64,000 nt of DNA from Salinisphaera hydrothermalis C41B8 (GTDB lineage Bacteria; Pseudomonadota; Gammaproteobacteria; Nevskiales; Salinisphaeraceae), in the NCBI RefSeq assembly GCF_000732535.1, contig NZ_APNK01000014.1, positions 1 through 64,000 of the forward strand, given 5' to 3'. The notes beneath the pieces were generated by a model. That model was given only the letters and a program-made list of their open reading frames with translations. It searched no databases and was not told the DNA's origin. This document shows, piece by piece, positions 19,785 to 61,117 of this stretch. How positions within the stretch are numbered: the first letter of the stretch is position 1; every line of letters starts with the position of its first letter. Made by a program: the position numbers and the translations under genes.

Positions 19785-20280
19785 TTCTTCGCGGATCACC
19801 GAGCCATGGCGCTCTGCGACTTCCGAGGGTTAAAGCATCGGTAGATACCAATAAGCAGTTCAATGGGGCGGCAACAGTCCCTGGAAAGGCCTACCCGCGC
19901 GTTTTCGCCGACCTTTGGTTTCGCGCTGCAGCGCGAGTCACTTCTCTTGCTTGCTCGGCAGATGTAACCAAGAGAAGAGCACCCGGCGCGGCGCCGGCTT
20001 CGCCGGTTCACGTCGAGGCGTAGTGCCGGCGGGATGCGCCCAACTAGTTAATAGCGATGGCGCGCCGCTTTGGCGGCGCTCAGACAGGCTGGCCGCACCG
20101 GCGCCGTGCGCCGGACACCCGCCGACACCGCGCCTCGCCGTCGCCGCACAACGGGCCTGGAATACAGACACGGCACATCAGGGATTAGCGTATTCCGTAG
20201 ACAATGGCATCGCGGTCCATCTAACCATCCAGCCGAGGCCATGATCCGGCTCGCCTTGGCCCTGGTAATTCGCGAAGCAC
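19785..20280. repeat. Dispersed structured repeat, copy 1 (R1)
   Basis: About 490 bp homologous to 29045-29540, placed directly after a terminator in both cases. The best conserved core (19906-20160) has GGTTTCGCGCTGCAGCGCGA, a CTTCTCTTG / CAAGAGAAG inverted repeat, a GC-rich CGCCGG hairpin cluster and a small hairpin GCGCCGC-TTTG-GCGGCGC at 20062-20079. That hairpin differs from copy 2 by two compensatory base-pair changes. Open frames within it have no family resemblance I trust. Function unknown: it could be a structured RNA, a mobile REP-like element or both. Confidence 0.8.
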
Positions 20281-26859: not shown

Positions 26860-28992
26860 ATGGCGCAGGAAATCAAGGTCCCGGACATTGGTGATTTCGA
26901 CGAGGTCGAGATCATCGAAGTGCTTGTCGCCGAAGGCGACACGGTCGAGAAGGAACAGCCGCTCATCACGCTGGAGTCTGACAAGGCCACGCTGGAAGTG
27001 CCGTCGACGGCCGCCGGCAAGATCACCAGCCTGAAAGTCTCCGAGGGCGACAAGGTCTCCGAAGGCGACGTGATCGCCACCGTCGAGGCCGAGGACGAAT
27101 CCGGCGATGACGATGGCGACGAAGAGCCGGCCGGCGACACCGCCGAAGCCGACAAGCAGTCCGACGAGCCCCGCGGCGCCGACGAGCCTTCCGGAGAAGC
27201 CGACGACAGCGGCAGCGGAGAAACCGTCGAGGTGAAGGTGCCCGACATCGGCGACTTCGACTCGGTGGAAGTCATTGAAGTGCTGGTGGCCGAAGGCGAT
27301 TCGGTCGAGAAGGAACAGGCGCTCATCACCCTGGAATCCGACAAGGCCACGCTGGAAGTGCCCTCCACGGCCGCCGGTACCATCAGCGAACTGAAGGTCA
27401 AGGAAGGCAGCACCGTCTCCGAAGGCGACCTGATCGCCCTGGTGGCCTCGAGCGGCGGCAGCAAGCAAACCCAGAGCGAATCCAAATCCGGTGGCAACAA
27501 GCCGGCCAGCGGCGACAGCGCCAAGGCCTCGTCCGGCAGCGGCTCGAAGTCCGAGCCCAAGGCCACCACGTCCGCCAGCGACGACCATAACTACGATTGC
27601 GATGTGCTCGTGCTGGGCTCCGGCCCGGGCGGCTACACCGCTGCCTTCCGCGCCGCGGACATGGGCCTGAACGTCACGCTGGTCGAGCGCCACAGCGTGC
27701 TCGGCGGTGTCTGCCTCAACGTCGGCTGTATCCCGTCCAAGGCCCTGCTCCACTCGGCCAAGGTCATCGAGGACGCCGCCAACATGGCCAGCCACGGCGT
27801 GACCTTCGGCAAGCCGGAGATCGATCTCGCCAAGCTGCTGGACTACAAGCAGTCGGTCATCGACCAGCTCACCGGCGGCCTGAAATCCATGGCCTCCAAG
27901 CGCAAGGTCAACGTCGTCAACGGCACCGGCACCTTCGCCGACGATCACACGCTCAAGATCGACGGCAACGACGACGTCAGCCAGCTCACCTTCAACAAGG
28001 CCATCATCGCGGTCGGCTCCGAGCCGGTCATGCTGCCCGGCTGGCCCGAAGACGAGCGCATCTGGACCTCCGAAGACGCCCTCTCGCCCGACGAAATCCC
28101 CGGCTCCCTGCTGGTCGTCGGCGGCGGCATCATCGGCTGCGAAATCGCCAACGTCTATGCCGCCCACGGCACCGAGGTCGACATCGTCGAGATGACCGAC
28201 TCGCTCATCCCCGGCGCCGACAAGGACCTCATCAAGCCGCTCACCAAACGCATGAACAAGCGCTGCGGCAACATCTGGGTGTCCACCAAGGTCACGGGCC
28301 TGGAAGCCGGCGACAAGCTCACCGCCAGCTTCGAAGGCAAGGACGCGCCCGAGTCCAAGGACTACGACCGCGTGCTCGTCGCCGTCGGCCGCAAGCCCAA
28401 CGGCAAGAAGATCGGCGCCGAAAACGCCGGCCTCGAAGTCAACGACCGCGGCTTCATCCCGGTCGACAAACAGTGCCGCACCAACGTCGATCATATCTTT
28501 GCCATCGGCGACGTCTCCGGCGAACCCCAGCTCGCCCACCGCGCGACGCACCAGGGCAAGGTTGCGGCGGAATGTTGCGCCGGCGAAAAATCCGCCTTCG
28601 ACGCCAAGGTCATTCCGTCAGTGGTCTATACCGACCCGGAAGTTGCCTGGACGGGCGTCACCGAAACCCAGGCCAAGAAAGAAGGCATCGAATACACCAA
28701 GGGCGCCTTCCCCTGGGCCGCCAACGGGCGTGCCATCGGCCTGGACGCCACTGACGGCAACACCAAGCTCCTGTTCGGCAAGGACGGCCGCATCATCGGC
28801 GCGGGTGCCGTGGGTAGCGGTGCCGGCGACCTGATCGCCGAAACCTGCCTGGCGATCGAAATGGGCGCCGACGCCCACGACATCGGCCTCACGATCCATC
28901 CGCACCCGACGCTGGCGGAAACGGTCGGCATGGCCGCCGAGGCCGAGGCCGGGACGCTGACGGATCTGTATATTCCGAAGAAGAAAAAGTAG
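26860..28992 (+). CDS. lpdA: Dihydrolipoamide dehydrogenase (E3) with two N-terminal lipoyl domains
   Basis: Flavoenzyme that reoxidises dihydrolipoamide with NAD+. At 710 aa it is about 235 residues longer than a plain E3 because two lipoyl domains precede it: residues about 3-77 and 125-198, each with the lipoylated lysine in ESDKATLEVP. The E3 part then starts with the FAD motif LGSGPGGYTAAFRAA (about 249), has the redox disulfide CLNVGC, a second GGGIIGCE nucleotide motif, and the C-terminal His-Glu motif HPHPTLAE. It starts MAQEIKVPDIGDF at 26860. Its transcript ends at a strong terminator right after the stop. Confidence 0.96.
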   Translation: MAQEIKVPDIGDFDEVEIIEVLVAEGDTVEKEQPLITLESDKATLEVPSTAAGKITSLKVSEGDKVSEGDVIATVEAEDESGDDDGDEEPAGDTAEADKQSDEPRGADEPSGEADDSGSGETVEVKVPDIGDFDSVEVIEVLVAEGDSVEKEQALITLESDKATLEVPSTAAGTISELKVKEGSTVSEGDLIALVASSGGSKQTQSESKSGGNKPASGDSAKASSGSGSKSEPKATTSASDDHNYDCDVLVLGSGPGGYTAAFRAADMGLNVTLVERHSVLGGVCLNVGCIPSKALLHSAKVIEDAANMASHGVTFGKPEIDLAKLLDYKQSVIDQLTGGLKSMASKRKVNVVNGTGTFADDHTLKIDGNDDVSQLTFNKAIIAVGSEPVMLPGWPEDERIWTSEDALSPDEIPGSLLVVGGGIIGCEIANVYAAHGTEVDIVEMTDSLIPGADKDLIKPLTKRMNKRCGNIWVSTKVTGLEAGDKLTASFEGKDAPESKDYDRVLVAVGRKPNGKKIGAENAGLEVNDRGFIPVDKQCRTNVDHIFAIGDVSGEPQLAHRATHQGKVAAECCAGEKSAFDAKVIPSVVYTDPEVAWTGVTETQAKKEGIEYTKGAFPWAANGRAIGLDATDGNTKLLFGKDGRIIGAGAVGSGAGDLIAETCLAIEMGADAHDIGLTIHPHPTLAETVGMAAEAEAGTLTDLYIPKKKK

Positions 28993-29042
28993 CGGCGTTA
29001 CCGGTTGCTACGACTAAAGGCCGGCTTTTTGCCGGCCTTTTT
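28920..29042 (+). repeat. lpdA 3' end plus terminator, direct repeat copy A
   Basis: This stretch (the last 24 codons or so of lpdA, its stop, and the terminator) recurs at 30216-30333. The coding part differs by one in-frame 6-bp deletion and one substitution; the spacer before the terminator has diverged; the terminator is almost identical. Copy A belongs to the intact gene. Confidence 0.88.
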
Positions 29043-29043
29043 A
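29016..29043 (+). terminator. Rho-independent terminator of lpdA
   Basis: Stem AAGGCCGGC (29017-29025) with GCCGGCCTT (29031-29039) closes on a T5 loop and is followed by Ts. The same terminator recurs at 30306-30333 downstream of a duplicated lpdA tail. Confidence 0.92.
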
Positions 29044-29044
29044 T

Positions 29045-29540
29045 TGGTGCTTCGCGAATTATCGGGGCTATTGCGCCCTGCGGGTCCCGAGCGTTCAAGC
29101 AGGGGAGTAGATCGGAGTCAGCAGTGCATTGGGCTGGCAACGCCGAACAGGCGTTCGGGAAGTCCCACCCCGGGCGTTTTCGCCCACCTTTGGTTTCGCG
29201 CTGCAGCGCGAGTCACTTCTCTTGCTTGCTCAAGAGAAGTAACCAAGAGAAGAGCACCCGGCGCGGCGCCGGCTTCGCCGGTTCACAGCGAGGCATGGTG
29301 CCGGCGGGATGCGCCCAGAACTCGCATCGCTTTGGCGATGCTCAAACAGGCTGGCCGCACCGGCGCCGTGCGCCGGACACCCGCCGGCACCACGCCTCGC
29401 CGTCGCCGCACAACGGGACGGGAATACAGACGCAGCGCATTAGGGCTTGGCGTATTCCATGCACCGTGGCACCGCAGCCCATCTAGCCATCCAGCTGTGG
29501 CCATGGTCCGGTTTGCATCGTCCCCGCAATACGCGATGCA
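29045..29540. repeat. Dispersed structured repeat, copy 2 (R2)
   Basis: Second copy of the ~490-bp repeat at 19785-20280, again directly after a Rho-independent terminator and in the same orientation. Here CTTCTCTTG-CTTGCT-CAAGAGAAG forms a perfect hairpin, and the small hairpin at 29324-29341 is GCATCGC-TTTG-GCGATGC. Pairing is kept relative to copy 1 although four bases differ. The open frames (for example 29283-29504 on the minus strand) look non-coding. Confidence 0.8.
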
Positions 29541-29650
29541 TCTTTTATTTCGGCACTTGCCAAGGGCATGGTTCGAAGTCGGCCCGTTAATTTACTCATG
29601 CAGCTGATGGCTCTATGCTTTTTAGAACCGCATCGAGCTAATTGAACGCC

Positions 29651-29866
29651 ATGGCTACGAACACCGACAAGGTACTGGAAGACGCGCTAAGCCTATCGGC
29701 GAATGAGCGCGCTGCGTTGGTAGAAGAGCTGATCGCCAGTCTCGATCAACCCGACCGGGACGTAGACTCCCTATGGGCTAAAGAAGCGGAGGCACGTATC
29801 GACGCCGTCGACCGAGGCGAAATGAAGTCGACTCCGGCGTCGCAGGTATTCGCTAAATACGATTAG
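29651..29866 (+). CDS. Addiction-module antitoxin component (TIGR02574-type)
   Basis: 71-aa protein of the putative addiction module component family: LEDALSLSANERAALVEELIASLDQP is the typical helical start, followed by a short acidic tail. It is expected to bind and neutralise the ParE/RelE-type toxin encoded two bases downstream. ATG at 29651 is preferred to TTG at 29642. The pair lies between the long repeat R2 and the duplicated lpdA tail, so it may be a small mobile or stabilising cassette. Confidence 0.85.
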   Translation: MATNTDKVLEDALSLSANERAALVEELIASLDQPDRDVDSLWAKEAEARIDAVDRGEMKSTPASQVFAKYD

Positions 29867-29868
29867 CC

Positions 29869-30159
29869 TTGGATATCCGCTTTTACGAGGCCGCAGAAGC
29901 CGAGCTCGACGAAGCGATTGCATACTACGAGCATCAGCTTCCGGGTCTCGGCGTTCGCTATCGACTCGCTATCCAGGCAGCCCTGCAACGAATTGCACAG
30001 TTCCCCGAGGCTTACCCGCCACTCAGCCGACGAACGCGGCGCTGTCTCGTCAACGGTTTTCCGTACGGTGTGATCTATCGAATAGAGGAGCGTACGATCA
30101 GCATTGTGGCGATTGCTCACTTGCATCGGCGCCCGAACTACTGGACTAGTCGGAGTTAG
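29869..30159 (+). CDS. RelE/ParE-family toxin
   Basis: 96-aa toxin-like protein. It shows the ParE pattern: an N-terminal beta strand (DIRFYEAAEAELDEAIAYYE), a helix hairpin with LGVRYRLAIQAALQRIAQFPEAYP, then RRCLVNGFPYGVIYRIEERTISIVAIAHLHRRPNYW, which is highly characteristic. Family members inhibit gyrase or cleave mRNA on ribosomes; the target here is not predictable. It begins with TTG, two bases after the antitoxin stop, so translation is probably coupled. Confidence 0.88.
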   Translation: MDIRFYEAAEAELDEAIAYYEHQLPGLGVRYRLAIQAALQRIAQFPEAYPPLSRRTRRCLVNGFPYGVIYRIEERTISIVAIAHLHRRPNYWTSRS

Positions 30160-30207
30160 CTGTCGATGCACCGTAAGATCTGCGCCGGCGATTGTTCTCA
30201 ATCGACG

Positions 30208-30282
30208 ATGGCAGCAACGGTCGGCATGGCCGCCGAGGCCGGGACGCTGATGGATCTGTATATTCCGAAGAAGAAAAAGTAG
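30208..30282 (+). pseudogene. Duplicated 3' fragment of lpdA
   Basis: A 24-codon open stretch starting ATG at 30208 reproduces the LpdA C-terminal residues, including the DLYIPKKKK end and stop. It differs from lpdA by one in-frame two-codon deletion and a T-to-M change. There is no upstream E3 sequence, so it is a displaced gene tail. Confidence 0.85.
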
Positions 30283-30333
30283 CGGCGCTGCTTTTCGCGT
30301 AAGACTAAAGGCCGGCTTTTTGCCGGCCTTTTT
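30216..30333 (+). repeat. lpdA 3' end plus terminator, direct repeat copy B
   Basis: Second copy of 28920-29042, ending in the same hairpin terminator (AAAGGCCGGC-TTTTT-GCCGGCC then Ts, 30306-30333). With copy A it brackets 29043-30215, which carries repeat R2 and the toxin-antitoxin pair. Confidence 0.88.
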
Positions 30334-30417
30334 TGTGGGCGGCGTTATTTACAGCCGTGGCGGGATTGCCTAACGTCTGTATGAGGCAACGAGTGATCGT
30401 GCGCCGAGGGGGGAATC

Positions 30418-34967: not shown

Positions 34968-35438
34968 ATGTCACGACCTGCCCGGTTTGTCGCCGCGCTG
35001 TCGGTTCTATGGATCTGTGGATTGTCCGGCTGTGCCCAAACCTCGGCGGGCGGCACAACCGTCGACACTTCGCCCGCCTCGCCCAGGGTGGCAACGTTGC
35101 CGTTGCACGAGGGCACTTTCGTTACCGAAGACTCATCCTGCGGCGATCCGCCGTTGGCGGCGTTGCTGGTATATAACGGCCAGGGTTTTGACGGCGCGCA
35201 TTCGCATGCCTGCCGAGCGCACGTGGTGAAACGCCGCGGAAATCTCGTGACGCTTGCCAATAGTTGTATCGACGCCGGGGTCGGTGAGGCGCCACGTACG
35301 ACCATGCCCCTGACGATCAAGCTGATCGATGCCGATCATTTCGCCGTGGATTCGAAGGCAGGCGACGTAACCTATCGACGTTGTCCGGCGGATCAGCTGC
35401 CGCCCAGCCTCCGGCAGCGTGCATCGGCCGAGAACTGA
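34968..35438 (+). CDS. Hypothetical lipoprotein
   Basis: 156-aa protein with a standard lipoprotein signal: basic start MSRPAR, hydrophobic core, lipobox LSGC with the cysteine near residue 23. The mature part has three further cysteines and no recognisable family. It is predicted to be membrane-anchored in the periplasm. ATG at 34968 is preferred over GTG/ATG just upstream. Its 3' end overlaps, on the opposite strand, the open fragment at 35393-35615. Confidence 0.7.
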   Translation: MSRPARFVAALSVLWICGLSGCAQTSAGGTTVDTSPASPRVATLPLHEGTFVTEDSSCGDPPLAALLVYNGQGFDGAHSHACRAHVVKRRGNLVTLANSCIDAGVGEAPRTTMPLTIKLIDADHFAVDSKAGDVTYRRCPADQLPPSLRQRASAEN

Positions 35439-35615
35439 CGCCCGGCCGTCATATATCCTGAGACGAAGCGCTGATCGAATACGCCGCGATCATTGAATAC
35501 CCGCCGCGGATTCAATTCCGAGCCTGTAACCGAGGTGAACGTGGGTTCTCGGCGCGCTGCGGTCACGACCGCGAGGCGGATGGCTTCCTCTTTATCGCTG
35601 CATGGCCCGTAGCCT
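35393..35615 (-). pseudogene. Open fragment cut by inverted-repeat element copy 1
   Basis: On the minus strand this open stretch reads GYGPCSDKEEAIRLAVVTAA and on to a stop at 35393, with two cysteines and no start codon before the element. It resembles the C-terminal half of a secreted protein. The Gln-rich gene lies on the same strand on the other side of the element, so both may once have been one gene. No family was recognised. Confidence 0.35.
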
Positions 35616-35900
35616 AGGGTCTGTTGAGGTTTCGTGCGGGTCCGCGCCAAGCGCTGTTTTGCGGCAAGACGAGGCGTAGCGAACGTGGCGTAGTTGTTCT
35701 ACGCGAGAGAGCTATAGCGCTGGATTGCCGCAAAACAGCGCTTGTCCCTTCGGGTTGGGCCGCCCATAAAAAATTAACTAGGGGCGCCCGGCGGCGTTGC
35801 GAGTCTGGGTCGTGGCACGCCACGACGCGGCGACTCACGCCTTGCCGGTCACGATTTGCGGACGCCAACGCGGCGCTCGCACGAAACCTCAACAGACCCT
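35616..35900. mobile_element. MITE-like inverted-repeat element, copy 1
   Basis: 285 bp with perfect terminal inverted repeats of at least 23 bp (outer bases AGGGTCTGTTGAGG). Inside lies a 19-bp subterminal inverted repeat (35649-35667 with 35725-35743) and a further hairpin around GTCGTGGC / GCCACGAC. It has no transposase. A second copy at 44129-44398 is similar throughout, but its terminal repeats differ at three positions, each mirrored on both ends. Its right end supplies the stop codon of the Gln-rich gene. Confidence 0.85.
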
Positions 35901-36321
35901 AAGGCGTTCGGCTTCGCTGTTGTTCCCGTAACTGTTGCTGCTGTAGCCGTTGTTGCTCGCCGCGCTGCTGGAGTTGCAATTGCGAGCGCTGTAGCTGTTG
36001 CTGGTTCTGCAGCGTGTTTTGGCGCGCTTGCTGTTCAAGGCTCGGCGGGCCCGAGAACGAATGCTGTTGCAGCTGCAGCTGTTGGCGTTCGTGGGCTTGC
36101 TGGCGTTCCAGGCTTTGGGATTGCATCTGCTGGCGGCGGTTCAGTTGCTGTTGTTGCCGCGTCTGCTGTTGTGTAAGTACTTGATGGGGTGCCGTGTCGC
36201 GCTGAGGCGGCGTGGTATCACCCGATAAGCCTGCCGCTGATGCAACCGATGCAATGGCGGGGAAGATAAGACCGATTGCGGCTATCGCCAGTCCGTGACG
36301 ACGTTTCCGATAAAGCTTCAT
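35899..36321 (-). CDS. Gln-rich secreted protein, probably truncated
   Basis: 140-aa product starting MKLYRKRRHGLAIAAIG with a clear signal peptide (cleavage near ASAAG). The mature part is almost entirely Q/R/L/S, helical and low-complexity (for example QQQTRQQQQLNRRQQ). The stop codon TAG is formed at the junction with the inverted-repeat element (TTAGGG), so the original C terminus has been lost or replaced. The frame extends upstream of 36321, but that ATG starts a normal signal peptide. Function unknown. Confidence 0.65.
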   Translation of the reverse strand: MKLYRKRRHGLAIAAIGLIFPAIASVASAAGLSGDTTPPQRDTAPHQVLTQQQTRQQQQLNRRQQMQSQSLERQQAHERQQLQLQQHSFSGPPSLEQQARQNTLQNQQQLQRSQLQLQQRGEQQRLQQQQLREQQRSRTP

Positions 36322-36629
36322 TGCATCCACCTCTCGACGGTTCCAGTCATCGCTCGCTGGCATTGTTTTTCGGAATAAGTATTTCTACTTAAATTTGGAG
36401 CCGGACTCTTCAAGCACAATAGGGCCTGGCTCGGGGGCAAACAGACAAGCACGAAGTCATGTGCATGGGTACGGAGTCGACGATCCTGCTGATGCGCCGT
36501 ATGACGTGTCGGCGTCTTACGGATTCAAGCGGTTGAGACACGTACTGTCGTCGCTTATGGGAGGAGAAAAGAGCCACAAGCTCGAACCTCGAATGCTCCG
36601 TTGGCCTTGGCATCTTGTCTGTAGTTCGC
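36322..36629. other. Intergenic between Gln-rich gene and glycosyltransferase
   Basis: 308 bp with no recognisable gene. The AT-rich part at 36365-36400 probably holds the promoter of the minus-strand Gln-rich gene. Nothing else stands out. Confidence 0.5.
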
Positions 36630-37943
36630 ATGAAGATAGAACAGTCAAACATCAAGGCTCGACCTCACCTCGCGCTGCTCCTGGATAACCTGACAACGGG
36701 CGGGGTTCAGCGCGTCATACTTTCGCTGGCCGAAAAGCTTGCGAATATGGGGTATCGCATCGACCTACTGGTGTGCGACACCCCGGTCGCGACCGACATG
36801 GCGGTTCCGGCCAATATCGCGGTTATTGAGCTTACGAAATCCCGCAAGATCGCCCGCATGGGCCAGATTGCATGTGGCCAAGGATGGCAGACTTCACGTT
36901 ATACGTTGCTGCCCGTTCCGGCGTTGCGTCGCGCGTTGCGGTTTCTGGGCTCGCTTGAGCGATATCTGCGGCAGGCCCGGCCGGCGGCGTTGCTTTCACC
37001 CAAACCCGCTCTGAATGTGCTGGCGATTCTGGCGCGCGAGCGCGCCGATTGGTCGGGCCGGGTGGTCGTCTCGGAGCACACCCAGTTTACCGGCGGTCAG
37101 GCCTGGGAAGCATTGGCGACGGTCGCGGCCGCGACGTATCGACGTGCCGACGCCGTTACCGCTGTATCCGAAGGGGTCGCGTCGAATCTCGCCGCGACGA
37201 TCGGGCTCAGCCCCGATCGCATCACCACGATTTACAATCCCGTGGATATTGCGTCTATTCGGGCCTCGAGCGGCGCCGAGATCGATCGGCCCTGGCCGAC
37301 GGATGCGCACGCATGCGAGATGATTCTGGGCGTCGGCGAGCTGACCGAGAGAAAAGACTTCGCCACGCTGGTCCGGGCATTTGCCCGAGTACGCGCGCAA
37401 CGCCCCTGTCGCCTCGTTCTTCTGGGCGATGGGCCCGAGCGTGACCGGCTCACGGAATTGAGTCGCGATTTGCGGATCGAATCCGACGTCTATATGCCGG
37501 GCGCGCAAAAGAATGTGTATGCCTGGATGGCATGCGCCAACGTTCTGGTGTCGTCGTCGCGGCGTGAAGGCTTCGGCATGGTTCTCGCCGAGGCACTCGC
37601 GGTAGGCTGCCCGGTCGTGAGCACGGCGTGTCCGAGCGGGCCGGCGGAAGTGCTGCGCGACGGGCGCGATGGCCGGCTTGTTCCGGTGGGCGACGATCAC
37701 GCGCTCGCCGCTGCTATCGTGGCTACGCTGGAGCGGCCGCCGGATCCGGCAGATCTTCGAAAACGGGCCGCCGATTTTTCCATGGACACGGCAGCTCGCG
37801 CTTATCTCAATCTCTTGTTGCCGAGTTACGACGAACTCCCACGACCAGACACGGGCGAACGTTTGGCTCGATCAACGCTCACTTTTCCCGATCAAGGATG
37901 CCCGCGGCACGCAGACCATGTCGACCCTTCGCCTACTGAATAA
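36630..37943 (+). CDS. GT4-family glycosyltransferase
   Basis: 437-aa GT-B fold enzyme, probably adding a sugar to a lipid-linked or surface glycan. The N-terminal domain begins LALLLDNLTTGGVQRVILSLAEKLANMGY, typical of GT4 acceptor domains; the C-terminal domain has VGELTERKDF, LLGDGPERDRL, the EGFGMVLAEALAVGCPVVST donor-site stretch and the conserved E-x7-E acid pair. ATG at 36630 is preferred to TTG at 36615. The last 26 bases overlap the next gene, suggesting co-transcription. Confidence 0.9.
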   Translation: MKIEQSNIKARPHLALLLDNLTTGGVQRVILSLAEKLANMGYRIDLLVCDTPVATDMAVPANIAVIELTKSRKIARMGQIACGQGWQTSRYTLLPVPALRRALRFLGSLERYLRQARPAALLSPKPALNVLAILARERADWSGRVVVSEHTQFTGGQAWEALATVAAATYRRADAVTAVSEGVASNLAATIGLSPDRITTIYNPVDIASIRASSGAEIDRPWPTDAHACEMILGVGELTERKDFATLVRAFARVRAQRPCRLVLLGDGPERDRLTELSRDLRIESDVYMPGAQKNVYAWMACANVLVSSSRREGFGMVLAEALAVGCPVVSTACPSGPAEVLRDGRDGRLVPVGDDHALAAAIVATLERPPDPADLRKRAADFSMDTAARAYLNLLLPSYDELPRPDTGERLARSTLTFPDQGCPRHADHVDPSPTE

Positions 37944-38607
37944 GCTGATCAAACCCTTCCGCTATGAAATTTCACGCATCGACGAGTTCGAGAAAGCTAT
38001 ACGGAAGACGCTGAGAAAACAGGAACAGTTCTACTTCGTGCAGGTCGGCGCCAACGACGGCGTTCATTTCGATAATCTGTTCGCGCTGGTATCCAACGAC
38101 AAATGCCGCGGGCTCGTGGTCGAGCCTCTTGAATATTATTTCGAGAAACTGGAACGGCATTACGCCGGTTTTCCCAACATTCAGCCGATTCGTTGCGCCA
38201 TACATGAATCGGAGTCCACGGCGGTGGTCTACCATATCGACCCGGATAGCCTGGACTCGTTCCCGCCCTGGTTCGCGGGGCTAGGTTCGTTCGACCGCGA
38301 GCACTTGATTCGAGCCGGCGTTGCGCCGGAACAGATCGCTGCCGAGCAGGTCGATTGCATGCCGCTGACGCGGCTGATCGAGGACTATCGGCTGCCCCGT
38401 GTGGATCTGCTGCAGATCGATACCGAGGGTTACGACGCCGAAATCGTAAAATCCATCGACTTCCAGCAATATCCGCCCCGGATCATCAAATACGAACAGA
38501 CCCATCTGTCGCCGGCGGACGTACAAGACACGCGACGTCTTCTGCGCGACAACGGCTATCGCGTCCTAACACAAGGCAACGATTGCGTCGCGCTGAGACT
38601 TGAGTGA
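37918..38607 (+). CDS. FkbM-family methyltransferase
   Basis: 229-aa SAM-dependent methyltransferase of the FkbM type. The SAM loop is FVQVGANDGVHFDN (about residues 36-49), followed by VVEPLEYYFEKLERHY and, further on, LLQIDTEGYDAEIVKSIDF, the family's hallmark. Such enzymes often O-methylate sugars. Its start overlaps the GT4 gene, so both probably modify the same glycan. The frame is open far upstream but only inside the GT4 gene. Confidence 0.9.
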   Translation: MSTLRLLNKLIKPFRYEISRIDEFEKAIRKTLRKQEQFYFVQVGANDGVHFDNLFALVSNDKCRGLVVEPLEYYFEKLERHYAGFPNIQPIRCAIHESESTAVVYHIDPDSLDSFPPWFAGLGSFDREHLIRAGVAPEQIAAEQVDCMPLTRLIEDYRLPRVDLLQIDTEGYDAEIVKSIDFQQYPPRIIKYEQTHLSPADVQDTRRLLRDNGYRVLTQGNDCVALRLE

Positions 38608-38658
38608 CCGCGCCAGGCCGGCCGCGATGCGCTGGGATGGATCGAGAGGCCGTGCTGT

Positions 38659-39345
38659 TCAACGATCGACCGCGAACGCAAACGCGGCGTCGCACTGCAG
38701 GGTCAGAGGATCGAGCAATGGCAAGGGACTGGTTTCGGCATTCGTTGCCGCGGGCAACTCGGTGCAGGCGAGTACCGCTGCGTCACAGTTGGCATGACGC
38801 GACAGAAGATGCTGGAAGTAAGCCTCGGCGTCATTGGGCGTGTGGCCTGCCGAGATGGCCGACTGGATGTGCTGAATGCGGGCGCGCTCCTCGGCTGCGG
38901 GTATATCGACCGTCAGGCCTGCCGCCTCGAGGCGCCCAGCGTAGTAGCCGTTTTCCATCGTGAACTGTGTCCCGAGCAGCAGGACACGATCGTAACCGCG
39001 GTCGATGGCGACACGCGCTGTTTCGTCGACGATATGGATGATCGGAACATCGGTTGGCCAGCGGTCCGCCAACTCGTCGATCGCTCGATGCAGCGTATTA
39101 CAGCAGACCACCACGCAGTCGGGGCGCATCGCGAACAGTTCGGCGAGTTCCGGTTCGAACAGCCGGAGCACGCCGGGCCAATCGGTCCCGTAGCAATCGA
39201 TGAAAGGCGCGTAGTCGATGCTTTTGAGCAGCAACCGAGCGGAATGCCGCGGGCCGAATTCGCGCTGCGCGAGCTGGTTGAGATACCGGTAATACTCGAG
39301 GGTCGACGGCCAGGCCGTGCCGCCCGGAAGACCGATGGTTTTCAT
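38659..39345 (-). CDS. Aspartate/glutamate racemase family protein
   Basis: 228-aa PLP-independent racemase. It has the two catalytic cysteines expected for the family: VVCCNTLH (about residue 83) and LACTELP (about 193). The N-terminal motif is GLPGGTAWPSTLEYY where GGMSWEST-like sequences are usual. It could interconvert D- and L-aspartate or glutamate, or a related substrate; specificity is not readable. It converges with the FkbM gene. Confidence 0.88.
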   Translation of the reverse strand: MKTIGLPGGTAWPSTLEYYRYLNQLAQREFGPRHSARLLLKSIDYAPFIDCYGTDWPGVLRLFEPELAELFAMRPDCVVVCCNTLHRAIDELADRWPTDVPIIHIVDETARVAIDRGYDRVLLLGTQFTMENGYYAGRLEAAGLTVDIPAAEERARIQHIQSAISAGHTPNDAEAYFQHLLSRHANCDAAVLACTELPAATNAETSPLPLLDPLTLQCDAAFAFAVDR

Positions 39346-39456
39346 GAGGATAATCGGGTTTTCACGGGTTGCGGCTCGGCAGCCGGCGTCGAACGAGCGA
39401 TGGTGGCTCGCCAGCCCTTAACCGTACAACAACGCACGCAAACCGAGCATGAGACG

Positions 39457-39483
39457 AAAAAAAGGCCGCATTAACTGCGGCCT
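39457..39483 (-). terminator. Rho-independent terminator of yjfB-like gene
   Basis: Stem AGGCCGCA (39463-39470) with TGCGGCCT (39476-39483) is followed on the minus strand by a run of seven Ts. It lies 30-60 bases past the stop of the 68-aa gene at 39517. Confidence 0.9.
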
Positions 39484-39516
39484 CTATCGTTTCAAAAACA
39501 TACGGCCGAATCGCCG

Positions 39517-39723
39517 TCAGGCGTAGGTATTGATCTGCGTACCGATCGATCCGGTGGTGGCCAGTGCCGGCTGCGTTTCCAGCGACGACATGAGCTGGCT
39601 CATCTGCGAGGCCTGACTGTTAAGCGATTTGCGCAGCAGGTTGGCCTGCACATCCTGGTTCTGGTTGTGTTGTTGCAACGCCATGGCGGTGCTGACGGTC
39701 GAGTTCACACTTCCTGCGTCCAT
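39517..39723 (-). CDS. YjfB-like putative motility protein
   Basis: 68-aa protein of the YjfB family (Pfam family annotated as putative motility protein). It is Gln/Ser-rich, helical in the middle (NLLRKSLNSQASQMSQLMSSL) and ends in a flagellin-like IGTQINTYA. Members occur near flagellar genes in some bacteria; there are none here. Own terminator downstream. Function is not established. Confidence 0.75.
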   Translation of the reverse strand: MDAGSVNSTVSTAMALQQHNQNQDVQANLLRKSLNSQASQMSQLMSSLETQPALATTGSIGTQINTYA

Positions 39724-39930
39724 GCGAGATTCTCCAAGTCCGGAAAATAAGAACCGGATTCGCTATATCGGCCGGCGGTCGGCGGACTTTAGGCACCGGT
39801 TGATGCGTTTACCGTGAGCGTTCTCCCCGCCGCGTCGTCGAGTCGACCCCGCGGCCGGGGCGCCCCGCGTTATCCTGACTACCCACGCCTCGCAATACGA
39901 GGCCTATCAATTTTCGTAAAGGAGCGCCCA

Positions 39931-41955
39931 ATGCGCTGGAACATCCCCGCTGACAGGATGCCCATGGCGGCGAGTGGTGACGCCGCCGCCGGTGGTGTCC
40001 GTGATGTGCCTTTGATCGAACGCGAGCGGTTGTTCGGCAACCCGAGCCGTATTCAGGGGCGGCTGAGCCCGGACGGCCGCTGGTTGTCGTGGATCGCGCC
40101 GTCCAACGATGTGCTGAACCTCTGGGTTGCGCCGGCCGACCGTCCCGATGAAGCCCGCGCGTTGACGGACGAGCGCGTTCGTCCGATCCGCAGCTATTTC
40201 TGGTCGCCGGACAGCCGTCAGCTGTTGTTCGTGAACGATCAGGGCGGCGACGAGAACTTCCGCCTGTTCGGCGTGGACGTGGAAAGCGCCACCCAGCGCA
40301 CGCTCACGCCACAGGAAGGCGTGCGGGTCCAGATGTTCGGCGTCAGCCGGCACGTGCGCGACCATATCGTCGTCGGCATCAACGATCGCGATCCGCGCTG
40401 GCACGATGTCTATCGTCTGGATCTGGACAGCGGCGCGCTGACGCTGGCGATGCAGAACGACGGGTACGGCGGTTTTCTGGTGGATGAGAGCCTCGAGATC
40501 CGGCTGGCGCAGCGCCCGCGCGAGGACGGCGGCGAGGATTTCTTCCGCGTGCAGGACGGCATGGTGGAAGACGAGCCGTTCGCCCGCATCAGCTTCGAGG
40601 ACAGCGCCAACACCGGCCCGGCCGGTTTCACTCGCGACGGCAACACGCTGTACTGGATCGACAGTCGCGGCCGCGATACCGCCGCCCTCGTGGCCCAGAA
40701 TCTCGACACCGGCGAAATGCACGAGATCGCCGCGTCGCCGAAGGCCGACGTGACTGGCGTGATGGCCGATCCGGACACCCACGAAATCCAGGCCTGGGCG
40801 GTGGATTATCTGCGCACCGAATGGCACGTGATCGACCCGGCCATCGGCGACGATCTGGCGTTTCTGGACGGCGAGCTCGAAGGCGACGTACACGTCACCT
40901 CGCGCACCGACGACGATCGGCGCTGGGTGGTGGTCAACGACCCGGTCACGGCGCCGCCGATCACGCATCTCTACGATCGCGATCGCCGCACGCTCACGAC
41001 GTTGTTCGTTAGCCGTCCGGAGCTGGTCGGCGCGCCGCTGGCCGGCATGACGCCGCTGGAAATCACCGCGCGCGACGGGCTCACGCTCACCGCGTATCTC
41101 ACCTTGCCGCATGGCAGCGGCGCCGACGGCTTTACCACGCCGGATCGGCCGCTGCCGATGGTGCTGCTGGTCCACGGCGGCCCCTGGGCACGCGACGACT
41201 ACGGCAGCAACCCATACCACCAGTGGCTGGCCAATCGCGGCTATGCCGTGTTGTCGGTCAACTATCGCGGCTCGACCGGTTTCGGCAAATCCTTCACCGC
41301 CGCCGGCGACGGCGAGTGGGGCGCGGCCATGCACGACGACCTGATCGACGCCGTCAACTGGGCGGTCGAGCAGCGCGTGGCCGATGCCAAGCGTGTGGCG
41401 ATCATGGGCGGCTCCTACGGCGGCTATGCCGCGCTGGCCGGGCTGACGCTCACGCCGGAGACCTTTGCCTGCGGTGTGGATATCGTCGGCCCGTCGAACC
41501 TCAAAACGCTGCTGGACAGTATCCCGCCCTATTGGGAAGCCGGCCGCCGCCAGATGTACCGCCGCATGGCCGATCCCGAGACCGAGGCCGGTCAGGCCTG
41601 GCTCAGCGAGCGCTCGCCGCTGACCTATGCCGATCGCATCGTGCGGCCGTTGCTGATCGGTCAGGGCGCCAACGACCCGCGGGTGAAACAGGCCGAGAGC
41701 GACCAGATCGTGAATGCGATGGCCGAGAAATCGATCCCGGTCACCTACGTGCTGTTCCCCGACGAAGGCCACGGCTTCGCCCGCCCAGCCAACAATATCG
41801 CCTTCAATGCGATTATCGAGGCGTTCCTGGCGGAGTATCTCGGCGGCCGCGCCGAGCCGATCGACGACGCGCTCAAGCCGTCGACGGCCACCGTGCCCCA
41901 CGGCGCCGACTACGCGCCCGGGCTGGCCGCGGCCTTGCAGACCGCTATCGTCTGA
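39931..41955 (+). CDS. S9-family prolyl oligopeptidase / acyl-aminoacyl peptidase
   Basis: 674-aa serine peptidase. The N-terminal beta-propeller (about 20-390) contains RIQGRLSPDGRWLSW-type repeats; the C-terminal alpha/beta-hydrolase domain has HGGPW, the nucleophile elbow GGSYGGYA (Ser near residue 495), the acid in GANDPRV and the His in DEGHGF. No signal peptide is seen, so it is probably cytoplasmic and cleaves short peptides. ATG at 39931 follows AAAGGAG; the frame upstream to 39814 is not conserved. Confidence 0.93.
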   Translation: MRWNIPADRMPMAASGDAAAGGVRDVPLIERERLFGNPSRIQGRLSPDGRWLSWIAPSNDVLNLWVAPADRPDEARALTDERVRPIRSYFWSPDSRQLLFVNDQGGDENFRLFGVDVESATQRTLTPQEGVRVQMFGVSRHVRDHIVVGINDRDPRWHDVYRLDLDSGALTLAMQNDGYGGFLVDESLEIRLAQRPREDGGEDFFRVQDGMVEDEPFARISFEDSANTGPAGFTRDGNTLYWIDSRGRDTAALVAQNLDTGEMHEIAASPKADVTGVMADPDTHEIQAWAVDYLRTEWHVIDPAIGDDLAFLDGELEGDVHVTSRTDDDRRWVVVNDPVTAPPITHLYDRDRRTLTTLFVSRPELVGAPLAGMTPLEITARDGLTLTAYLTLPHGSGADGFTTPDRPLPMVLLVHGGPWARDDYGSNPYHQWLANRGYAVLSVNYRGSTGFGKSFTAAGDGEWGAAMHDDLIDAVNWAVEQRVADAKRVAIMGGSYGGYAALAGLTLTPETFACGVDIVGPSNLKTLLDSIPPYWEAGRRQMYRRMADPETEAGQAWLSERSPLTYADRIVRPLLIGQGANDPRVKQAESDQIVNAMAEKSIPVTYVLFPDEGHGFARPANNIAFNAIIEAFLAEYLGGRAEPIDDALKPSTATVPHGADYAPGLAAALQTAIV

Positions 41956-42083
41956 GCGGTGTCTGCGGGTGGTGCGGCGCCCGCAGCGCCCGGGATGTTG
42001 CCGCGGGCCCGGTTTTCAGGCGAGCGGGCCCAGCGAGGCGGCGTATCGTCGAATCGCGGGGGCGTCGTGCGTGCCGACGCCCC

Positions 42084-43262
42084 TCAGGCTCGCTGGCGTC
42101 GGCGATGATGGAGGAATGCGGGCAGCGTCAGGGTCAGCACACAGGCCAGGGTATACACGACGTGCAGCGCCGGGCTGCCCAGCGCCTCGACCCGGAAGCC
42201 GATACCCATGTCGAGATAGACGAGGAGCACCTGGAACGTGAATACCTGGATCGACGAGCGGCCGAGATAATCCAGCCACGGCACCCGGGCCGTGCGCGGC
42301 ACGAACCGCAACAGCCCGGCGGTGAGCACCAGCAGACCAAGCGTATCGAACAGTCGCAGCCAGCCCATCTTTGTGCTGTCGAGCGCCGAGTCCTGTGCAG
42401 AGAGCCCGATCGACAGCAGATCGTGGCGGGCCAGGCACAGGGCGCCGAGAAAAACGAGCAGCGCCAACCACGCCGAGGCGGGCATCCGGCCGAGTGCACG
42501 CCGCACGGTGTCGCGATAACAGCCCAGTAGAAGCCCGAGCGTCCATAGCAGCTGCCAGCACAGCAGATTGAAATGGCCGGCCCGGTAGTCGCCGGCCAAC
42601 AACGCGGTGAGTGGCCCGGCCGGATGCAGCAGGCTGCCGATTGCCCAGATACCCACACTCGCTGCCGCCACGAGCCCCGCATAGCCGCGCCGAATGCCCA
42701 ACACGGCAAACGGCGTGACCAGTACGAACACCACGTACATGGGCAGAATGTCGAAATAAGCGGGCTGGTTGACCATCGCGAACGACAGCAGATTCCAAAC
42801 CCAAGGGTGATGGATGGTCCCGCCCAGATGCCAGTACACGCCGAGCCGCGGCAATAACCAGGTCAACCCGACGAGCAGCGCCAGCGCGGCAATGTAGTAG
42901 CGATAAATCAGGGCCGCGCGGCGGATCGAGGTACGGCGCAGCGTACGCAGGTCGGGTGCCCGCAGAACATACGCCAGCGCAAACATATAGCCGGACAGAA
43001 AGACGAAGCCTTCGGCCGCGGTCACGAATCCGAGCGGCGAATAGCTGATGGCATACAGCGGCCCGCCGAGATGGTCGATCGTCATGATCACCAGCAACAA
43101 GCCGCGCAACGTGTCGATGCGATTGTCGCGCCCGGGGCGCCGATGCTCGCCGGGAACCTCGGGCTCACGAGCAGGGCGGTGTGCGCGACGCGGGTCCGTA
43201 TTGCGCTCGTCGGGGGATCGCCACAATGCGTGGCCCACGGTCTGCAAGGACGGCTTCAACAC
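42084..43262 (-). CDS. OpgC-domain membrane protein
   Basis: 392-aa integral membrane protein of the OpgC/acyltransferase-3-like group. After a polar N terminus of about 45 residues it begins RIDTLRGLLLVIMTIDHLGGPLY and continues through about ten hydrophobic segments (GFVFLSGYMFALAY, LLSFAMVNQPAYFDILPMYVVFVL). OpgC adds succinyl groups to osmoregulated periplasmic glucans in enterobacteria. The acyl donor and target here are unknown; OpgGH are not adjacent. Confidence 0.85.
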   Translation of the reverse strand: MLKPSLQTVGHALWRSPDERNTDPRRAHRPAREPEVPGEHRRPGRDNRIDTLRGLLLVIMTIDHLGGPLYAISYSPLGFVTAAEGFVFLSGYMFALAYVLRAPDLRTLRRTSIRRAALIYRYYIAALALLVGLTWLLPRLGVYWHLGGTIHHPWVWNLLSFAMVNQPAYFDILPMYVVFVLVTPFAVLGIRRGYAGLVAAASVGIWAIGSLLHPAGPLTALLAGDYRAGHFNLLCWQLLWTLGLLLGCYRDTVRRALGRMPASAWLALLVFLGALCLARHDLLSIGLSAQDSALDSTKMGWLRLFDTLGLLVLTAGLLRFVPRTARVPWLDYLGRSSIQVFTFQVLLVYLDMGIGFRVEALGSPALHVVYTLACVLTLTLPAFLHHRRRQRA

Positions 43263-43748
43263 AAGTGCTCCCCAAATATCCGCCGGGCAGTTCGCAACGG
43301 TTGTGCCACGCCCGGCGATGTCACGGCTTGGCGGCGACGCGACGGCTGTAAGTGCCTGTTGTCTCCAAGCGGCGCGAGCCGAGCCTGACCCGACGCCCCG
43401 CTCAAACCGGATCTGCGTCGCGAAAAGGGTTCTGGGCCGCCATGGCGATTGGCTTGCGACGTCATGAAGACCGACGGCCCTGGGACGGATCGATTATTTA
43501 AAATCAATCGAATCAAGACGTTGAAAAATCACAGCTGGAATATACGGCGTCGATCCTGATGACAGCCGGAGGCCATTCTATGATCGCGGGAGGCGAGATG
43601 CTCGATTGCTATACCCCTGTATAAGATGCTGAAAATAATAATTATTAGCAGCATATTAGTAAGCCGACACGCGGATCGTCACGCACGTCGAAATGGCTTA
43701 CAGAAGCGGCCTGCGCCCATGTCCGGTCGCTAAAACCAGCGATCCATG
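43263..43748. other. Intergenic region with Fur-box-like palindrome
   Basis: About 485 bp without a recognisable gene. It includes an AT-rich stretch 43625-43665; GAAAATAATAATTATTAGC at 43631-43649 matches the 19-bp Fur consensus at 15 positions by eye. No iron gene is next to it. Confidence 0.4.
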
Positions 43749-43783
43749 AAAAAAGCCTCCGCTGTCGAATCAACAGCGGAGGC
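43749..43783 (-). terminator. Rho-independent terminator of csp-like gene
   Basis: Perfect 11-bp stem (43755-43765 with 43773-43783), 7-nt loop, and a run of six Ts on the minus strand (43749-43754). It follows the copper-storage gene remnant by 35 bases. Confidence 0.92.
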
Positions 43784-43817
43784 TTGCGATCGGACGTGTA
43801 TCCGAAGTCGAATCCGC

Positions 43818-44480
43818 CTAGCCGTCGAGGTGGCCGAGCAACTCGTCGCAAGCGGTGGCGCAACGATTGCAGGAATCGGCACATTCGGCGCAATGCTGGT
43901 GTTGATCGCGATGCGATTCGCAGTCGCGGGCACAGGTCTGGCAGGCATCACGGCAGGCTTTGACCAGCGTGGCGGCCGCCGATTTGTCGATATGCGTCTG
44001 TCGCGACAGCACGCGCACGGTGGTGCTGCAAATGTCGGCGCAATCGAGATCCGTTCGAACGCATTGCGCCATGCCGTCATGGCCGAGGCAGGCGTCGGCG
44101 CATACCGAGCAGCATTGGCTGCATTCTGAGGGCCTGTTGCCGTTTCGTGCGAGTCCGCGCCAAGCGCTGTTTTGCGGCAAGACGAGGCGTAGCGAACGTG
44201 GCGTAGTTGTTCTACGCGAGAGAGCGACAACGCTGTATTGCCGCAAAACAGCGCTTGTCCCTTCGGGTTGGGCCGCAAATCGCGCCCGGCGGCGTTGCGA
44301 GTCTGGGTCGTGGCACGCCACGACGCGGCGACTCGCGCCTTGCCGGACACGATTTGCGGGCTCCAACGCGGCGCTCGCACGAAACGGCAACAGGCCCTAG
44401 CACGCGGCGATGCAGTCGGCCAGTTCCTTGTTGAAGTCGACGGGATTCGAATGCGTGTTGAGTCGTTCCTGAATCTGCAT
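43818..44480 (-). pseudogene. Copper-storage (Csp-like) four-helix protein gene split by inverted-repeat element
   Basis: Outside the element the two parts join into a typical Cys-rich four-helix-bundle copper protein. The N-terminal part, with a good ribosome site (AAAGGAC) before ATG at 44480, reads MQIQERLNTHSNPVDFNKEL then ADCIAAC. The C-terminal part starts ECSQCCSVCADACL and ends CAECADSCNRCATACDELL, with about 13 cysteines. The 270-bp element (44129-44398) sits between CIAAC and ECSQ and immediately creates a TAG stop. The family stores Cu(I) in the cytosol. It is probably inactive unless the element is removed or the second part is expressed separately. Confidence 0.88.
44129..44398. 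mobile_element. MITE-like inverted-repeat element, copy 2
   Basis: 270 bp, same family as 35616-35900. Terminal inverted repeats of at least 23 bp are perfect within this copy but read AGGGCCTGTTGCCG instead of AGGGTCTGTTGAGG. The internal 19-bp inverted repeat (AAGCGCTGTTTTGCGGCAA and complement) is unchanged. There is no transposase and no clear target duplication at the ends. It interrupts the csp-like gene. Confidence 0.87.
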
Positions 44481-44735
44481 GGCAGAGTCCTTTATCGAGT
44501 CGATGAAGCCGTGTCATGCAAACGCGGCCGGTAAGCTCGGGTCGATAGGTGCAACTCCATAGTCGATCGGTGCGATTCGACTATCTTCGGACCGGCCGCG
44601 TCCGCGAGCGGTGACTCGGCGGCTAGCGGCACATCACGACTGCGGCGGGAATAGTAAGATGCGCCGGTCATTCGAAAATCCGGCGCGGACAGTACATGGG
44701 TACGGCCGCCGTCGGGCCTCAACGCGGAGCCGGTT

Positions 44736-45185
44736 GTGCAGATATGGGTCGATGCCGATGCGTGCCCGGTGGTGATCAAGCAGATTCTGTTTCGGGCCTC
44801 GAAGCGGACCGGCATGCCGGTAACGCTGGTGGCGAATCAGCCCTTGCAGGTGCCGCGCCAGCCGCAGATCCAGGCGGTGCAGGTCGCGAGCGGGTTCGAC
44901 GTCGCGGACAACGAGATCGTCCGGCGCATGACGGCCGGTGATCTGGTGATCACCGCCGATATCCCGTTGGCCGCCGAGGTGATCGACAACGGCGGCCAGG
45001 CGCTGAGCCCACGCGGCGAGATGTATTCGCCTGATGACATCGCGGCCAAACGCACGATGCGCGATTTCATGGACACGCTGCGCGCCAGCGGCATCCACGG
45101 CACCGGGCCGTCGGCGCTCGGCGAGAAGGAACGCCAGGCTTTTGCCAATGCACTCGACCGCTGGCTCGCGAAAGCACGTGGCTGA
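44736..45185 (+). CDS. yaiI: YaiI/YqxD family protein (UPF0178)
   Basis: 149-aa protein of the DUF188 family, which has a PIN-like fold. It opens with [20 protein letters not shown] and has the [11 protein letters not shown] and [11 protein letters not shown] segments, typical throughout. Biochemical role is not established; a nuclease is suggested by fold only. It starts with GTG at 44736 after GGAG. Single-gene unit. Confidence 0.92.
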
Positions 45186-60319: not shown

Positions 60320-61117
60320 GTCCGCCAATGAACGCAAAACAGCGCAAACGGCGGACCGGGATTTCTACCCCGCTGATGCGGCGCACCGTTGCGTGTTTCG
60401 GGCTTCGTTCGGCGAAGAAAACAGTCCGCAGATCAACGCAGATTCACGCCGATGCAGTCGTGCGTTCGCGGCGTAGTAGATTCGAGGCGCTAACCCGCGG
60501 CGGAATCGGTTAGAACATCTCACTCGAAGACTCTCATCGAGAACGAAGCGCACGCTGGTGTTCGCGCCAACGGCTCATAGCGCCGCCGACACCTAACCGC
60601 CATCTGCGTGAATCTGCGTCGATCTGCGGATCAATGTCTTAAGGAACGAAGAGACAGGCCAGACACGGCGCCCCGAGCCCGTGGAGATCAAAAAAACCGG
60701 TCCGCGAATGAACGCAAATGAAGCAAATAGCGGGCCCGTATTCCGACTCGGCTGATGCTGGGCGCCGTTGCGCATTCGGGCTTCGTTCGGCGAAGAAAAC
60801 GATCCGCAGATTGCGCAGATGACACAGATGCGGTTTTGCTTTCGCGGTGTAGCGGATCCGAGGCGCGCTAATCGGCGGCCGCGGAGTCGGCGAGAACATC
60901 CAAATCCAAAACTCTCGTTGAGGACGAAGCGCATACAGCCGTTCGCGCCACGAGCCACTCGTTGCCCGAACGCTTAACCGCCATCTGCGTCATCTGCGAA
61001 ATCTGTGGATAAGTGCTTTAAAGGAACGAAGAGACAGGTCAAGCGGCGCCCAGAGTCCGTGGCGGTCGCAAAACTCAGTCCGCCATTCGCGCTGTTTGCG
61101 TTCATTGGCGGACTGAG
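60320..61117. repeat. Tandem ~380-bp noncoding repeat (two units plus start of a third)
   Basis: The phrase TCCGC-AATGAACGCAAA recurs at 60320 and 60700, and the start of a third unit at 61078 opens GTCCGCCA. Other shared anchors repeat at the same spacing: GGCTTCGTTCGGCGAAGAAAAC (60401, 60779), CGCCATCTGCGT with a run of ATCTGCG words (about 60600, 60980), and AAGGAACGAAGAGACAGG (60641, 61021). The units are clearly diverged. The third start forms a 12-bp hairpin (61074-61085 with 61106-61117). No coding sequence is recognisable; it may be a recombination-prone intergenic repeat. Confidence 0.75.

Follow-up and report, generated by a model that had tools for sequence, protein, structure and literature searches.

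MITEs that derive from IS5 elements, and inverted-repeat hairpins that change on both sides at once, are both already known. MITEPsy1 of Pseudomonas syringae is an IS5-derived MITE, 100 bp long, that occurs in few copies and has a 4-nt duplication (PMC3189936), and in REPINs changes on one side of the hairpin are reported to be commonly compensated on the other (PMC3116915). Template switching at quasipalindromes and the correction of RNA stems explain two-sided changes in inverted repeats, transversions included (PMC8794818; PMC8604942), although this is a mutational mechanism and not an element. The element of Salinisphaera described here is like MITEPsy1 in being short, apparently non-coding and multi-copy, with IS5-like ends and a CTAG-type target, but it measures ~270 bp, reaches ~100 copies, has TA at CTAG and covaries along its entire fold. 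It is a mobile inverted-repeat hairpin, as are the REPINs (REP doublets), which, however, are far shorter and linked to RAYT tyrosine transposases, whereas the Salinisphaera element has IS5-type ends and CTAG/TA sites. In a limited literature search we found neither an element that unites a 270-bp multibranch covarying fold with IS5-type ends coupled across a shuffled interior, nor any work on mobile elements of Salinisphaera.

Two copies of this element, recovered by a repeat search as blocks of 95% and 94% identity, lie in the window, by which we mean the whole stretch of 64,000 nucleotides of Salinisphaera hydrothermalis C41B8 that was analysed. Copy 1 occupies 35615..35901 of the plus strand together with its flanking TA (35615-35616 and 35900-35901); the element proper (35617-35899) begins with GGGTCTGTTGAGG and finishes with CCTCAACAGACCC, and the left TIR (AGGGTCTGTTGAGGTTTCGTGCGG, 35616..35639, plus strand) and the right TIR (AGGGTCTGTTGAGGTTTCGTGCGA on the minus strand, 35877..35900) are both of end type TC-AG. 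It carries a 15-bp inner insertion that is also seen in other copies. Copy 2 (44128..44399, plus strand, with flanking GA and TA) has its element proper at 44130-44397, running from GGGCCTGTTGCCG after the GA to CGGCAACAGGCCC before the TA, and both of its ends are of type CC-CC, the same AGGGCCTGTTGCCGTTTCGTGCGA being read in the left TIR (44129..44152, plus strand) and in the right TIR (44375..44398, minus strand). Counting the A of AGGG as position 1, the TIRs of copies 1 and 2 differ at positions 5 (T/C), 12 (A/C) and 13 (G/C), and every difference is mirrored exactly, so that the end sequences bear out what a previous sequence-only reading had stated about these three changes. The same reading had described an inner 19-bp inverted repeat within the outer arms, giving a nested fold-back structure; this repeat (19-20 bp) was confirmed, its arms in copy 2 being CAAGCGCTGTTTTGCGGCAA (44162..44181, plus strand) and TTGCCGCAAAACAGCGCTTG (44239..44258, plus strand), and the fold scored z = -12.9 for copy 2 as DNA and z = -12.5 for copy 1 as RNA against shuffles. 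Copy 2 splits a gene for a cysteine-rich DUF326 protein (43818..44480, minus strand), which matches PF03860 above cut-off in the part after the element and has its start codon (44480-44478) and first residues upstream of the insertion. Open reading frames cross the copies, while conservation follows base pairs.

The window also holds other repeats. A group built on 'ATCAACGCAGATTCACGC' lies at 60397-60811 and includes an inverted pair (60425-60454 and 60601-60630); a similar phrase adjoins the MITE in locus L139. A near-identical 56-bp duplication and a repeated terminator-like 'GACTAAAGGCCGGCTTTTTGCCGGCCTTTTT', ~1290 bp apart, were seen at 28907-30338, and blocks of 160 and 202 bp (91% and 84% identity) are repeated ~9.27 kb apart, at 19883-20262 and 29158-29524, where they are probably duplicated genes.

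Within the window's genome the TIR pattern was found at 193 ends, against none for a reversed control pattern, and the ~100 copies are dispersed and roughly 250-314 bp long (typically ~270). The family was present in all 14 Salinisphaera genomes, and in other genomes of the taxonomic family the matches were sparse and weak, in two of three. A phage search gave nothing useful, and a plasmid search with copy 1 gave partial or chance matches, except for an Azotobacter stretch that led to a wider family. The preferred target is CTAG: TA adjoins the GGG at 203 of 262 ends and a C precedes at 203 of 262 ends; TA stands on both sides, within CTAG, in 84 of 131 copies, as a target-site duplication, and neighbouring copies are sometimes joined at common CTAG sites. 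One empty site was found in a related genome (G009), opposite the second copy of locus L024 (2193-2460), whose ends bear three rare variants in mirrored form (C1, A13 and G16); this insertion came without a clean TA duplication. In locus L066 (652-1800; C6:8651-9800 of the own genome), a broken IS5-like element of a second type, with ends AGGCTGTGTCGTCACGAGAT and AGGGCGTGTCGTCACGAGAT, has a MITE copy on one side and a single MITE end on the other, with CTAG at each junction.

Complete ISs with the same ends are present in the window's genome. Two of them, of ~860 bp (C8 and C57), have the first 18 bp of the MITE at both ends, in the form CG-AG, and C8 encodes an intact 267-aa IS5-family transposase (NF033580, 257.7 bits, cut-off 110); the transposase of ISs with these ends scored above cut-off for PF13340 and PF01609, and is thus a DDE transposase of the IS5 type. 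A third IS of this genome (C9) has unlike ends, TC-AG and CG-AG. In the relatives, diverged ISs carry CG-CC ends (G006 and G008, at both ends, G004 and G012) or CC-AG/CC-AT ends (G010); since the IS ends of the window's genome and of the relatives differ in type, IS ends vary at the variable positions of the MITE. Intact IS copies are few, with none found in G009, a genome that has many MITE copies. TA duplication and a preference for CTAG are features of IS630/Tc1-mariner elements and their MITEs. However, none of the four candidates scored in the window's genome passed as a DDE_3 transposase (PF13358), so that this group was rejected as the transposase source, and the matching IS belongs to the IS5 family. 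The MITE-like nature of the two copies, as first proposed, is upheld by copy number, TIRs, TA/CTAG sites and IS5 elements with the same ends. The further proposal of a structural parasite not moved by a standard transposase is not supported, because both the own genome and its relatives contain IS5-family elements that share its 18-bp ends and its CTAG/TA sites; we therefore read the element as the MITE of an IS5-type IS and not as transposase-independent. From the common ends and target, an IS5-family transposase is most likely what moves it.

The coupling of the two ends extends well beyond the window. Among 138 copies, parsed from the sequence stretches that surround them, left and right agreed at positions 5, 6, 12 and 13 in 114, compared with a mean of 31 and a maximum of 47 when end states were permuted; copies asymmetric at these positions numbered 13, 4, 6 and 9, respectively, versus 47-83 expected, and mirrored positions were linked with r2 of 0.77-0.93 in the window's genome. 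Concerted change of the TIRs recurs family-wide at these four positions, but at the remaining TIR positions between 1 and 18 most changes were single-ended (63, versus eight two-ended). We read the end types TC-AG, CG-AG, CC-CC, CG-CC and CC-AT as families of matched ends; several of them also occur on ISs of the same genus, and G009 contains intermediate end states (CC-CC, TC-CC/CC-CC and TC-CC). The sequence-only reading had named two findings that would count against it, namely transposase-encoding elements with these ends, which were found, and copies whose ends differ freely, which were found only in part: 24 of the 138 copies were mismatched at the four variable positions, some asymmetric types recurring, and one resident orthologous copy (L077/L138, below) stayed asymmetric and acquired single-ended changes. 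Because of these copies, and of one IS with unlike ends (L191), the matching of ends is not absolute.

Elements of 268-269 bp from Azotobacter, a Pseudomonas aeruginosa plasmid and a Halomonas plasmid have the ends, CTAG-like sites and nested fold in common with the Salinisphaera family, with largely different arm sequences. RNAalifold on an alignment of 31 elements gave 81 pairs, of which 39 change on both sides with pairing kept. The covariation score was 0.214, versus 0.093 (sd 0.005) in shuffles and 0.02-0.05 with partners slid, values to be read with caution, since the same alignment supplied the structure and related sequences inflate the shuffle control; a same-alignment artefact is nevertheless unlikely, because the slid controls are low and the covarying pairs are spread over six helices of at least three pairs. 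Linkage between partners was also seen within the window's genome, in the arm 1 terminal hairpin (r2 0.58-0.74), and was weak for other inner partners. The mirrored end changes are the outermost part of a base-pair covariation that runs throughout the folded ~270-base element. Selection on a single large stem, one of the mechanisms first suggested, has substance in that the concerted change is real, family-wide and part of a nested fold-back with covariation along its entire length; the selective step is our inference.

Two-sided changes may also arise in single events and without selection, through arm-to-arm conversion, either by template switching (quasipalindrome correction) or by mismatch repair of a folded intermediate. 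Conversion of this kind has been described (PMC8794818; PMC8604942), and several observations are in its favour: in copy L110, GT became CA at both ends, a change absent from every other copy in the 14 genomes; 22 of 41 types of two-sided replacement are transversions unable to pass through G-U; and mirrored changes in the inner arms numbered 16 versus 1.6 expected, many of them shared by descent. Nonetheless, the two ends disagree in 49 of the 138 copies at position 21, which lies inside the same 24-bp repeat, and the predominance of single-ended changes at the other outer positions also speaks against it. Further evidence comes from one insertion common to the window's genome and G009 (L077/L138), with both flanks orthologous. 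Its asymmetry at position 12 was kept in both species and so survived their divergence, and its ends gained six single-ended changes and no mirrored one; its inner stem shows one replacement of T-A by G-C on both sides, as conversion would produce. This was the sole true paired replacement among its 15 changed pairs, compared with 46% two-sided in other similarly diverged copy pairs. This locus, a single one, points to pairing being upheld in the moving lineage rather than in place. A second candidate, L024/L139, which resembled a single orthologous copy that had mirrored all three changes in situ, was rejected and is read as two independent insertions at one CTAG, because each interior has its nearest relative within its own genome (2.3% and 1.8%), against a difference of 11% between the flanks. 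End-to-end conversion, which the sequence-only reading had also put forward, is thus disfavoured as a general process by the position 21 asymmetry and by the resident copy; we regard it as unlikely, yet a serious contender, and less likely than a filter imposed by mobilisation.

The resident copy bears likewise on the idea of a structured host RNA or terminator that spread as a repeat, its fold being selected for host benefit. Such an origin would fit the strong, conserved and covarying fold, and some copies do sit directly against the TAG stop of a gene and re-create it. Gene 3' ends coincide with the element boundary in modest excess, however (64 versus 43 in frame controls), which lends little weight to the notion that elements are placed at TAG stop codons. 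Moreover, the fold decays in the resident orthologue, copy 2 disrupts the DUF326 gene, TA-flanked ends and a matching IS indicate transposition, and Rfam gave no match in 35000-45000. We consider a host function very improbable.

The interior of the element behaves as shuffled among copies. End type and interior are unlinked in the window's genome (mean r2 ~0.012; null 0.016), and interior distance is 0.084 between copies of the same end type and 0.086 between those of different types; copy 2, for instance, has its closest interior relative at 1.8% difference, yet that relative has TC-AG ends. LD in the interior decays over ~60 bp, of 666 pairs of interior sites 567 do not pass the four-gamete test, and own and G009 copies segregate the same polymorphisms, with no fixed differences. 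Longer copies (e.g., L089, L102 and L087) were seen to contain three interior insertions of 12-15 bp with a TTAA core, in the left arm, the right arm and the centre; they occur in several combinations, and two have AAAATTAACTAGGGG in common. The left- and right-arm insertions were rejected as a mirrored pair, as the two arms do not complement each other exactly and many copies have the right-arm form only.

These data agree with a history of ordinary subfamilies, in which every end type arose by a single fixation in a master copy and was then inherited, gene conversion between copies later shuffling the interior, the ends being protected by their position beside unlike flanks. In a simple simulation, illustrative and not fitted to the data, exchange sufficient to unlink the interior uncoupled the ends (match ~0.4; observed 0.89) unless they were exempt or re-matched, and with protected ends both matched ends and low LD between TIR and interior were obtained at about 10 or more exchanges per copy. 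However, no linkage to end type is left at an insertion that sits only ~30 bp inward of the variable end positions, and this history gives no account of how new end types became symmetric and leaves the covariation of the inner stem and across genera unexplained. Inherited end types with edge-protected interior exchange may contribute, but as the full explanation they appear quite unlikely.

We therefore favour, as somewhat more probable than otherwise, an IS5-mobilised MITE of which only those copies keep moving that have recognised and mutually matching ends and pairing arms. Mutation and exchange between copies would supply variants, and mobilisation would filter them, since amplification would need both ends to be recognised, of the same type, and the arms to be paired; resident copies would then decay one side at a time. 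Under such a filter the TIRs, as the outer stem, would be the most visible case of pairing-constrained evolution. The scarcity of paired change in the resident copy, observed in one orthologous pair, suggests a filter of this kind. IS5 transposition is not known to require a folded single strand, which leaves the role of the interior arms in movement unexplained. It is conceivable, though unlikely, that the element moves or is copied as a folded single strand, so that arm pairing, ends included, is required or imposed at each transposition. If this were true, an IS5-type system would carry a structure-selected replicon across several gammaproteobacterial genera.

Covariation is usually taken as evidence for a functional RNA, and here it is found throughout a DNA transposon with matching IS5 elements, being present in the moving lineage and largely absent from the single resident orthologue that was studied. 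Because a genome holds ~100 copies and there is an intact candidate transposase, the family offers a direct test between selection during transposition and template-switch correction of the MITE arms, a question that is usually debated on RNA genes.
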